A DNA stretch of 44,089 nt from Terriglobales bacterium (GTDB lineage Bacteria; Acidobacteriota; Terriglobia; Terriglobales; Acidobacteriaceae), in contig JACQDD010000018.1 of assembly GCA_016201265.1 (NCBI GenBank), forward strand, positions 1 through 44,089, in the 5' to 3' direction. The notes beneath the pieces are model-generated. The model saw nothing but the letters and a program-made list of their open reading frames with translations. It made no database searches and was not told the DNA's origin. This document shows, piece after piece, positions 11,895 to 27,510 of this stretch. The position numbers were made by a program, and so were the translations under genes. Numbering within the stretch: the stretch's first letter is position 1; every line of letters starts with the position of its first letter.

Positions 11895-12827
11895 TCACTT
11901 GGCGCGGGGATGAGTCTGGTCGTACACGTTCATGACGTGCTTGACCGAAAGCTGGGTGTAGCGCTGGGTGGTGGCCAGCCGCTCGTGGCCAAGCAATTCC
12001 TGGATGGCGCGCAGGTCGGCGCCTTCTTCCAGCATGTGGGTACCGAAGGCGTGGCGCAGAGTGTGGGGGTGGACGTCGGGTGAGAGTCCTTTTGCGACGG
12101 CGATGCGTTTGACGATGCGCCCGACGCTGCGGGTGGTGAGGCGGCCGCCGCGTTGGTTGACGAGCAGGGCTGGCGTCGTCTTCTTGAGCGTCGCGAGCAG
12201 TTGCTGCCGCCAGGGCAGGTAGGTGGCGAGAGCGGCGCGCGCTGCTCCGCCGAAGGGGACGTAGCGTTCTTTCTTGCCCTTGCCGCGGATCAGGATGGCT
12301 TCCGCGCTCAGGCGGATGTCATCGAGGTTAATGCCGACCAGTTCCGAGTTGCGAATCCCGCAGCCGTAGAGCAGTTCGAGCATCAGGCGGTCGCGTTCGG
12401 GGAAGGAAGCGGCTTCGGGCATTTTGCCGTCGAGCACGAAGTTCATCTCTTCGATGGTTGGGACGCGCGGAAGTTTCTTGGGTAGGCGTGGGGTGGATAC
12501 GAGCTTCGCGGGATTCTGCTCGACCACGCCTTCCTGCGCCAGCCAGCGATAAAGCGAACGCACGGCTGCCAGGGCGCGGGCAACGGAGGTCTTGCCCAGT
12601 CCTTTGTCGTAGAGATGAGAAAGAAAGCCCCGGATGGTGATGTGGTCAATCGTCTTCCAGTCGCGCGAGCCGATGTAGGCCGCAAAAGTGTCGAGATCGC
12701 CGGTATAGGCCTTGATGGTGTGCGCGGAGGCGTTGCGCTCGCAAAGATGGCGGAGGAACGAGTCGGTGGCGAGCTCGACGGGCGTGCGTTTCGTTCTTGC
12801 AGCTTCGTTCATGAGATTAGAGAACAT
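11895..12827 (-). CDS. xerC: Tyrosine recombinase XerC
   Basis: A 310-residue tyrosine recombinase with an N-terminal SAM-like DNA-binding domain (residues about 15-105) and a C-terminal catalytic domain. Catalytic residues are visible: Arg in [12 protein letters not shown], Lys in [11 protein letters not shown], His and Arg in [14 protein letters not shown], His in [16 protein letters not shown] and the nucleophile Tyr near 290. The Xer pair resolves chromosome dimers at dif during division. It lies directly downstream of xerD on the same strand, 165 bp apart, and the gap is filled by a palindromic heptad element that ends 1 nt from the 12827 start. ATG 12812 is an alternative start. Which of the pair is XerC and which XerD is judged by resemblance only. 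Confidence 0.85.
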
Positions 12828-12828
12828 T

Positions 12829-12989
12829 CACCACAGAGTCACAGAGACACAGAGAAAGTCAGAAGGCAGAAGGCAGATTGCAGAAGTGAACCCCTCACCG
12901 CGCACCTCTGCAATCTGACCTCTAACCTCTGCCCTATTGCCATTGACCTATTGCCATGCCTTTCTCTGTGCCTCTGTGTCTCTGTGGTG
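12829..12989. repeat. Heptad-palindrome element A (nested double inverted repeat)
   Basis: The outer arms, 12829-12857 and 12961-12989, pair at 27 of 29 positions and are built of CACAGAG-type units. The inner arms, 12860-12886 and 12905-12931, pair at about 21 of 27 and are built of 7-nt AGAAGGC/AGATTGC units. A third 7-nt set (CTATTGC, CATTGAC, CTATTGC) fills 12934-12954. The element occupies the whole xerD-xerC gap, leaving 3 nt to the xerD stop and 1 nt to the xerC start. Confidence 0.85.
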
Positions 12990-12992
12990 GAA

Positions 12993-13916
12993 TCAGGGCC
13001 TCGCTTTCGCCCTCGGATGATGTTTCGCGTAGACGCTCTTCAATCGGTCGAGCGCGACGTGGGTATAGATCTGCGTGGTCGAAATATCAGCGTGGCCGAG
13101 GATCGTCTGCACCGTGCGCAGGTCGGCGCCGTTCTCGACCATGTGGGTGGCGCAGGAGTGGCGCAGCATGTGCGGGCTGGCGTGGCGTCCCGATCCGAGG
13201 GAAGCCTTTCCTACCAGTTGCCAAACGCGCTGGCGGGTCAGGCGGCGTGCGCCTGTACCTAGAAAGAGGAGTGGCGACGTTCGTTTCCTGGCTAGCACTT
13301 CCCTGCTGTTGTTCAAGTATTGCTCTAGGGCTCGCTGGGCCGGGACACCGAGCGGCACCATGCGTTCTTTGTCGCCTTTGCCGCGCACCAGGATGTATCC
13401 CATGTCGAGCTTTAGGTCTTCCAGACGGGCGTTGGCGACTTCGGAAACGCGCACGCCGCTGGCGTAGAGCAGTTCGAGCATGGCGCGATCGCGGAGGGCG
13501 AGGGCCTGGGCGCGGGCAGTGTCATTGCGCGGCTGGGTTGCGGCGAGCGTGGCCTCGACTTCGTCGCGGCTGAGCGATTTGGGCAGCACCTTCCACTGCT
13601 TGGGAGAATCGATGTTGAGGGTCGGGTCCTTGTCGATTTTTCCGTCGAGCAGCAGGTATCGATAAAGATGGCGGATGGCCGAGAGCTTCCTCCCCACGGA
13701 GCGGCCGTCGAGCTGGTTGGAGAATAGGTCCTGAATGAAGTCGCGGACGTCTTCGCGGCGGGCACTGGTCAGAAGCTGGCGGCGCTCCTCCAGAAAGTCG
13801 GCGAACTGGGCAAGGTCGCTGGTGTAGGCCGTGATCGTCAACTTGGCGGACCCGCGCTCTACCCGCAGATAGTCGAGAAAGGACGCGAGCGCCCGGGAGT
13901 CGGCGGCGGAGGCCAT
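12993..13916 (-). CDS. xerD: Tyrosine recombinase XerD
   Basis: A 307-residue tyrosine recombinase, partner of the adjacent XerC. The N-terminal core-binding domain starts LASFLDYLRVERGSAKLT. Catalytic motifs are Arg in YASGVRVSEVANARLEDL, Lys in VRGKGDKERMVPLG, His/Arg in SPHMLRHSCATHM, His in ILGHADISTTQIYTHV, with Tyr near 284. LLDGKIDKDPTLNIDSPK sits at the domain junction typical of XerD. Both proteins end in a similar tail (SVYAKHHPRAK and [11 protein letters not shown]), consistent with an old tandem duplication. The likely role is dif-site recombination with FtsK control. Start ATG 13916. Confidence 0.87.
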   Translation of the reverse strand: MASAADSRALASFLDYLRVERGSAKLTITAYTSDLAQFADFLEERRQLLTSARREDVRDFIQDLFSNQLDGRSVGRKLSAIRHLYRYLLLDGKIDKDPTLNIDSPKQWKVLPKSLSRDEVEATLAATQPRNDTARAQALALRDRAMLELLYASGVRVSEVANARLEDLKLDMGYILVRGKGDKERMVPLGVPAQRALEQYLNNSREVLARKRTSPLLFLGTGARRLTRQRVWQLVGKASLGSGRHASPHMLRHSCATHMVENGADLRTVQTILGHADISTTQIYTHVALDRLKSVYAKHHPRAKARP

Positions 13917-20499: not shown

Positions 20500-20538
20500 C
20501 TAGGACTCCTTTTGCGTGGGAAACTATACTAGCAATTC

Positions 20539-20634
20539 GTCGTTGGTCGATAGTCGCTGGTCGTTCGCGGTTCGCAAGAGCCGCTGCCTGACCCAAAGAT
20601 CCCAAGCGACTAGCGACTAGCGACCAGCGACTGC
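20539..20634. repeat. Heptad-palindrome element B
   Basis: The left arm 20539-20573 is made of 7-nt units GTCGTTG, GTCGATA, GTCGCTG, GTCGTTC and GCGGTTC. The right arm 20603-20634 uses CAAGCGA, CTAGCGA (twice) and CCAGCGA. The arms pair at about 24 of 29 positions. It lies in the divergent amidohydrolase/polymerase promoter region and ends 2 nt before the polymerase-domain ATG. Confidence 0.85.
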
Positions 20635-21740: not shown

Positions 21741-21775
21741 ACTTCTGCAATCTAACTTCTGACTTCTGCAATAAG
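21741..21775. repeat. Heptad element E, single arm
   Basis: Five 7-nt units: ACTTCTG (21741, 21755 and 21762), CAATCTA (21748) and CAATAAG (21769). Its reverse complement shares AAGTCAGAAG and AGATTGCAGAAGT with the inner arm of element A. I find no opposing arm. It ends 5 nt before the DUF72 ATG. Confidence 0.75.
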
Positions 21776-26265: not shown

Positions 26266-27429
26266 ATGCCCACAGCGCAGCAGGAAACCCGGCGCCAGCC
26301 CCGCTTGAAGGTGGAAGCCGAGCGCTTCTGGCAGCGCGTCAGCGAAGGGCTGGAAGTCAACCAGCTCTGGTCGCAGTTTGAAAAGGACGCGCGCTCGAGT
26401 TATCGCTTTTATTCCTCGGGGCTGGCAGGTCAGGCAGAAGGCGAGTCCGGTGTTCGCCGTGCCTGGCTTATTACCAAGGCGCTGTTCTGGGCCATCCTGG
26501 AAAAGCTGAGCCCGGCGCGGCGTGTGCTGCTGCTGCTCGCGCTGATTCTGCTTTTCTTTCCGGTTGGCGGATTCACCTTCGGCGCCAAGGCGGGCCAGGT
26601 CCACCTGGTCGAGTTCGACCTGCGGCTTTGGGGCGGACTGTTGCTGCTGGTCGTGCTGCTGCTCGAACTCGCCGACCGGGTGGTGATGAAGCGCGATCTG
26701 GAAATTGCTAAGGACATCCAATCGTGGCTTTTGCCGGGAACTCCGCTTCAACTTCCGGGTTATCAGATCGCCTATGCGACGCGTCCGGCCAATACTGTGG
26801 CCGGCGACTACTACGACGTCATCCTGCGTCCAGGAGAAACGCGCGGCGAAGACCGCGTGCTGTTCGTGGTGGCCGACGTGGTCGGCAAAAGCATTCCGGC
26901 GGCCATGCTGATGGCAACGTTCCAGGCCAGTCTGCGTACGCTTTCGAGCAGCCGTGTCTCGCTGGCGGACCTGGTCGCGGGGCTCAATCGCTATGCCTGC
27001 ACCAACAGTCAGGGCGGTGTGCGCTTCACGACGGCGTTCTTTGCGGAACTGGATCCAGTGACCGGCGCTGTGGTCTATGTCAACGCCGGGCACAACGCAC
27101 CCATTCTGCGGAAAAGCTCCGGAGTGGTCGAGCGCCTGGAGACGGGCGGCGTGCCCCTCGGGATTTCGACCGAGTTCACACATCAGGCAGGCACGGCGAA
27201 CCTGGGTGCCGGAGACTGGCTGGTCATCTTCACCGATGGAGTCGTTGAAGCAGTGAACACGAAGGGTGAAGAATACGAAGAACCGCAGCTCATTCGGCTG
27301 GTGGATGAGGCGGCAGCGAGTACCCCGGCAGAAATGCTACGCCGAATGTTGGGAGCACTGGACGCTTATGTCGGTCACACGCCGCAGCATGATGATATGA
27401 CGTGTTTGCTGCTGAAAAGAAGCACTTAG
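26266..27429 (+). CDS. Membrane-anchored SpoIIE-type PP2C phosphatase (RsbU-like)
   Basis: A 387-residue protein. The N-terminal 75 residues are soluble, then two hydrophobic segments (RVLLLLALILLFFPVGG and LLLLVVLLLELADRV). A SpoIIE/PP2C-like domain follows from about 147 to the end. Metal and active-site motifs are visible: ANTVAGDYYDVILRPGE, VVADVVGKSIPAAMLMA, NAGHNAPIL, FTDGVVEAVN and HTPQHDDMTCLL. These enzymes dephosphorylate anti-anti-sigma factors or related proteins in partner-switching pathways; no such partner is in the window. The last two codons and the stop lie inside heptad element C. Confidence 0.93.
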   Translation: MPTAQQETRRQPRLKVEAERFWQRVSEGLEVNQLWSQFEKDARSSYRFYSSGLAGQAEGESGVRRAWLITKALFWAILEKLSPARRVLLLLALILLFFPVGGFTFGAKAGQVHLVEFDLRLWGGLLLLVVLLLELADRVVMKRDLEIAKDIQSWLLPGTPLQLPGYQIAYATRPANTVAGDYYDVILRPGETRGEDRVLFVVADVVGKSIPAAMLMATFQASLRTLSSSRVSLADLVAGLNRYACTNSQGGVRFTTAFFAELDPVTGAVVYVNAGHNAPILRKSSGVVERLETGGVPLGISTEFTHQAGTANLGAGDWLVIFTDGVVEAVNTKGEEYEEPQLIRLVDEAAASTPAEMLRRMLGALDAYVGHTPQHDDMTCLLLKRST

Positions 27430-27510
27430 CACTTAGCCGTTAGCCTTTAGCCAGACACTGCAGGGAGGAGGATTTGGCTAGATGCTAAGTGCTAAATGCC
27501 AAGTGCCCGC
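27421..27510. repeat. Heptad-palindrome element C
   Basis: The left arm 27421-27455 uses units AGCACTT (twice), AGCCGTT, AGCCTTT and AGCCAGA. The right arm 27476-27510 uses GGCTAGA, TGCTAAG, TGCTAAA, TGCCAAG and TGCCCGC. The arms pair at about 25 of 31 positions. It fills the entire gap between the convergent phosphatase and oxygenase genes and supplies the phosphatase stop codon (TAG 27427-27429). Confidence 0.87.

Follow-up and report, generated by a model that had tools for sequence, protein, structure and literature searches.

A nested palindrome between xerC and xerD in a Terriglobales genome is probably a gene-less composite of two REPIN-like repeat families

The gap of about 160 bases (12829-12989) between a xerC-like and a xerD-like gene, in a window of 44,089 nt from a Terriglobales bacterium, contains one inverted repeat nested in another, here called element A. 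Element A is probably a gene-less composite of two REPIN-like palindromic families, in which tandem arrays would be mobile ends acted on by the proteins that gene-bearing members enclose. As judged from the flanks compared below, gene-bearing members of the octad family (CACAGAG-like cores, with a unit of 8-9 nt) enclose a GxxExxY/PDDEXK_3 nuclease-like gene, and those of the heptad family (7-nt arrays) enclose a gene for a four-helix-bundle protein (23S-rRNA-IVP/S23, Avd-like). Read along the minus strand, xerC comes first, followed by element A and then xerD; the features are as follows.

11895-12812, minus strand: xerD-like tyrosine recombinase gene, the downstream neighbour, given with its more likely start (the longest open reading frame starts at 12827)
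12829-12861, plus strand: outer left arm, with a CACC end, three CACAGAG octads (cores at 12832, 12840 and 12848) and then AAAG
12860-12888, plus strand: inner left arm, with the heptads CAGAAGG CAGAAGG CAGATTG (CAGAAGTG)
12889-12902, unstranded: central loop, without counterpart in other octad/heptad composites
12903-12931, minus strand: inner right arm, with CAGAGGT, a variant of the inner-left heptads also found in L031, L059 and L200
12934-12954, minus strand: CTATTGC heptad array (GGCAATAGGTCAAT on the minus strand), one-sided (right half only)
12957-12989, minus strand: outer right arm, with three CTCTGTG octads (12964, 12972 and 12980) and GGTG at the end
12993-13916, minus strand: xerC-like tyrosine recombinase gene, the upstream neighbour of element A

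Both pairs of arms described in a first-pass annotation are real. The outer arms are 33 nt long and 91% complementary; their unit is an octad made of a CACAGAG core and one free base, with three cores per side. The inner arms are 29 nt long, 79% complementary and built of 7-nt units (CAGAAGG/CAGATTGC heptads). The two layers had been read as lying in register; they are not, since the outer layer repeats every 8 nt and the inner layer every 7. CTATTGC had been counted as a third vocabulary. However, its array had a single match at up to 3 mismatches in the 2.93-Mb assembly and is thus unique in the genome, so that a third heptad family was rejected. The reported spacing of 3 nt to the xerC stop held. 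The spacing of 1 nt to a start codon is doubtful, since it needs the ATG at 12827, which adjoins T 12828, itself part of the element end consensus TTCACC. The xerD start is probably at 12812, because the alignment with the congener G081 supports that ATG (CTCATGAACGAAGCTGC). No match to a GxxExxY gene was found between the outer arms of element A, and no four-helix-bundle gene between its arms.

The predicted RNA fold of element A reached -84.4 kcal/mol on the plus strand (z = -7.7) and -99.2 kcal/mol on the strand carrying xerC-xerD (z = -9.0), energies attained by no shuffle. Such a stable fold on the transcript strand would suit an element acting at the RNA level, namely a hairpin in the xerC-xerD transcript cut by RNase III, with the enclosed proteins as RNA-binding passengers and element A tuning xerD. 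The 23S rRNA intervening sequence (IVS) of Coxiella, with its S23p gene, tandem heptamers and RNase III cleavage (PMC4990558), and the weak Avd similarity of the four-helix-bundle protein (23S-rRNA-IVS/S23; TIGR02436, PF05635) point the same way. However, the spacer positions of the octads pair at chance level, the free base being complementary in 7 of 23 cases with 7.8 expected. The cores therefore seem to be conserved for their sequence and not for a perfect helix, which would suit their recognition as sequence, and maintenance of the outer-arm helix by compensatory change was rejected. The Rfam search of element A gave zero family matches, so the RNA family that the first-pass annotation had named as an alternative account of the full structure was not found. 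Neither an intrinsic terminator (a stem followed by a T tract) nor a promoter was found in element A.

We then compared the gap among relatives. The two recombinase genes are neighbours in most genomes of the family. Octad elements occupy the gap in G075, G076 and G077, and a degenerate one in G078, all without an inner layer. In 11 congeners the gap contains AATTTG/GTAATTTG heptad palindromes, in G028 a GTCATCCTGAG palindrome, and in G069, G073 and G071 it is only 23-38 nt long. The CAGAAGG inner layer was present in this gap only in the genome studied here among the congeners compared. The gap is thus not conserved as a whole, having other palindromes or none in congeners, and by this alignment it is a turnover site. 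Away from xerC-xerD, 3 genomes of the genus have a GxxExxY element at a locus where at least 8 others lack it, so turnover of the elements between species is seen in the comparison of these loci too. Since congener gaps are empty or hold unrelated elements, no fixed RNA role at xerD is indicated. The GxxExxY protein, moreover, is a member of a nuclease superfamily. We consider the RNA-level reading unlikely.

Returning to the composite of two families, the occurrence of the outer layer without the inner one in congeners agrees with a separate gain of the layers, although it does not prove the insertion order. The description of palindromes inserted within palindromes likewise stands insofar as each module is also found without the other at further places in the genome; stepwise insertion at xerC-xerD itself is unproven, because the loops show no relationship and the divergence of the gap hides any exact empty site or target-site duplication, neither of which was found there.

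Both layers recur in this genome (a 2.93-Mb draft, 76% complete). CACAGAGNCACAGAG had 71 exact occurrences versus 4 for the reversed control. We located 37 octad clusters, 21 of them two-armed (20 of 48-191 nt and one of 426 nt), and the interiors of the two-armed clusters differ from one another. Element A matches this family in its inverted CACAGAG-core arrays, its 8-nt period and its TTCACC/GGTGAA ends. None of the short octad copies contained a coding remnant, and their origin as deletion products of GxxExxY-bearing elements was rejected for that reason. The CAGAAGG heptad pattern gave 138 matches at up to 3 mismatches versus 4 in the control, a genome-wide census that is an estimate. Element A matches the heptad family in its inverted 7-nt arrays, the sequence of which is that of gene-bearing copies in the same genome: the four-helix-bundle genes at C16 and C93 (L187, L188) have the heptads of the inner layer together with the GTGAACCC junction, and the CAGATTGCAGAAGTGAACCC junction of the inner left arm is common to both elements. 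At three further loci (L036, L046 and L051) heptad arms begin about 6 nt inside an octad arm, the right octad arm being kept only in L051. Six octad/heptad pairs were no more than 15 nt apart, where an assumed heptad count and an assumed intergenic share would predict roughly 0.3-0.5 in intergenic DNA. A further repeat family, the GTCATCCTGAGCGAAG/GATCCCTCGCT palindrome, was seen in L051 (about 1090-1160) and in the xerC-xerD gaps of G028 and G077, and is sometimes nested in octad elements.

The 426-nt octad element (L043/L094) encodes a GxxExxY protein (TIGR04256, PF13366 PDDEXK_3); the other two GxxExxY genes of the genome sit between different arrays (CACGAAGG and CGCGGAT). For each gene we took as flank score the best inverted match between its 5' and 3' flanks. 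In the genus, the median score of GxxExxY genes was 24 versus 9 for mispaired flanks, and 25 of 30 genes scored above the highest xerC control (13). We then examined 80 loci, 78 of them usable, from Acidobacteriota, Planctomycetota, Chloroflexota, Pseudomonadota, Bacteroidota, archaea and others. The results showed that 61 of the 78 exceeded the highest of 62 control pairs, taken from flanks further out in the same loci; since the loci had been retrieved as top matches of a query drawn from array-flanked genes, the family-wide enclosed fraction may be lower. Genomes in which CACAGAG arrays flank a GxxExxY gene had more octad sites than the others (p = 0.014, n = 3 versus 21). The left arm may also be translated, because it was open in frame with the GxxExxY domain at 14 of 25 genus loci (e.g., MIHHGDTETRSK). 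The arm vocabularies vary widely between loci. Across phyla they correlated weakly with protein similarity (r = 0.12, p = 0.03), and a vocabulary set by the protein was rejected, the strong within-genus correlation being confounded by shared loci. Among congeners with a same-looking downstream gene, GxxExxY arms of differing vocabulary were seen (L129 and L141 versus L125, L126, L127 and L130), with both arms changed together.

The flanks of four-helix-bundle genes behaved similarly: 30 of 34 genus loci and 26 of 29 loci from the phylum scored above controls, and period 7 was the commonest in their arms. At 14 named plasmid loci from cyanobacteria, Gemmatirosa, Bacteroides, Bernardetia and Sphingomonas, scored without a separate control, 13 reached 14 or more, the Sphingomonas locus being the one that did not. 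Plasmids of Anabaena sp. 90 and Pseudanabaena galeata carry two heptad-armed genes of this kind (L340, 468-836; L342, 474-833), each located between cas6 and cas4. The arms of the four-helix-bundle gene at C202 (L190) of this genome are in the AATTTG vocabulary, as in the gap of the 11 congeners. The window itself contains further heptad arrays: a palindrome at 20537-20634 (GTCGTTGGTCG...AGCGACTAGCGAC) in the vocabulary of the four-helix-bundle gene at C256 (L184), another at 27419-27507 (AGCACTTAGCACTTAGC...GCTAAGTGCTAAATGCC) in that of the gene at C56 (L183), and a one-armed CAGAAGT/CAGATTGC array at 21744-21775.

According to the results of family searches, the GxxExxY protein matches the PD-(D/E)XK family, and E19, D59, E69, K71 and Q83, which fit the PD-(D/E)XK pattern, were invariant in 13 of 13 sequences. 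Its AlphaFold model had good confidence (pLDDT 88). A fold search with it gave weak matches, led by the I-Bth0305I catalytic domain (E = 0.07), and a sequence search gave no solved relatives. A phage origin was rejected, since no GxxExxY protein was found in the phage collection. For the four-helix-bundle protein, no catalytic activity is known to us; XCC0516 of Xanthomonas campestris (PDB 2gsc) was identified as its relative. We know of no role for either protein, although GxxExxY and "S23" four-helix-bundle proteins are annotated in many bacterial genomes; nor do we know of an owner proposed for the heptad and octad palindromes, which have been noted before. Both proteins look to be under purifying selection, with dN/dS of 0.02-0.22 where dS could be measured, dS often being near saturation.

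Repeats of this kind could also arise passively, slippage and palindrome-prone replication building and copying the arrays, with both genes as accidental passengers. Tandem growth is seen in a long one-directional array of alternating CAGAAGT/CAGATTG heptads (L199, 388-510; C176:36387-36509), so arrays grow by tandem duplication too; the short copies have no gene remnants, and the vocabularies change from locus to locus. Nevertheless, the same two protein families recur within such arms across phyla, the selection on both families appears purifying, and nothing similar was found at xerC flanks or outer flanks. We regard a purely passive origin as very unlikely.

We infer instead that the GxxExxY and four-helix-bundle proteins mobilise the elements, and that gene-less copies are moved in trans. 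The arrays would be recognition ends of small mobile DNA, and the enclosed protein would recognise the paired arrays. The GxxExxY nuclease may act on DNA cruciforms or single-stranded hairpins, with the four-helix bundle as a nucleic-acid-binding partner. The proteins would spread either complete copies or short arms-only copies, in the manner of RAYT transposases with REPINs. Short intra-operon gaps such as xerC-xerD would tolerate insertions, and repeated insertion there would give rise to nesting. We counted two observations against a simple form of this mechanism, namely G075, with 32 octad sites and no GxxExxY gene, and the short copies without a coding remnant. The weak cross-phylum correlation of arm vocabulary with protein similarity and the lack of a known catalytic activity in the four-helix bundle also weigh against the mechanism. 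The wider proposal, that octad and heptad palindromes are the ends of two cross-phylum mobile families, driven by the GxxExxY nuclease and the S23/Avd-like four-helix bundle, with element A as a nested gene-less copy of both, is put forward tentatively, with slightly less than even confidence.

The octad and heptad elements might also be REPINs, with a RAYT (Y1 transposase) as their mover, since this genome has two Y1 transposase genes; the outline of REPINs is similar (PMC3116915). However, the Y1 gene whose flanks are complete is enclosed by a palindrome of its own, CCCACCCTCGCGTTCTTTGCAAGGGTGGG, and not by octads or heptads, which speaks against RAYTs as the mover, and the pairing of octads with GxxExxY genes recurs across phyla. 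This origin is therefore highly improbable. The Y1 transposase gene between its own REP-like palindromes at L351 (C198:20348-20671) offers a comparison for both families from within the same genome.

With each repeat type read as the gene-less form of an element that encloses a specific gene elsewhere, two poorly understood repeat classes gain candidate partner proteins. One protein family per repeat class gives a testable role to both repeats and proteins, the functional role being drawn from association statistics. Such a tie would further hint that 23S rRNA intervening sequences have a chromosomal source. In the open-licence literature we found neither a tie of octads to GxxExxY nor one of genome-wide heptad palindromes to four-helix-bundle genes; priority is uncertain, because subscription journals lie outside that literature.

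Several known repeats resemble those described here. Intergenic 7-nt tandem arrays, as in our heptad family, occur in Xanthomonas and Nostoc, with about 70 inverted pairs per genome in Xanthomonas (PMC4692102), and in Beggiatoaceae as TAACTGA repeats (PMC4679880); neither text mentions "S23" or "four helix". According to the part of PMC2700814 available to us, Geobacter metallireducens has inverted tandem octads (GTTGCTYN; TCTCCGTS[Y]) or heptads at variable distance (classes 1-3). The octad TCTCCGTS[Y] reads CACGGAG on the opposite strand and forms inverted pairs as here. Unlike our elements, these repeats were proposed as sites of IHF/HU-type regulators, and that part of the paper ties no GxxExxY or four-helix-bundle gene to them. 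The Coxiella 23S rRNA IVS with S23p (PMC4990558) shares the four-helix-bundle gene, the terminal inverted repeats and the tandem heptamers before the gene. In contrast, the elements described here are intergenic, outside rRNA (element A lies between xerC and xerD, outside any 23S rRNA gene), are found at many loci in many vocabularies, and are mostly gene-less. The REPIN-RAYT system (Bertels and Rainey 2011, PMC3116915) likewise has paired inverted repeats with a variable spacer in intergenic DNA, in many copies of which few carry a resident protein gene, and the RAYT of this genome shows the same gene-within-palindrome layout. The arms here differ in being tandem 7- or 8-nt arrays, and they enclose a GxxExxY (PDDEXK_3) or four-helix-bundle gene rather than a Y1 transposase gene. 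By this likeness, REPIN-RAYT is the closest working analogy for the two families.
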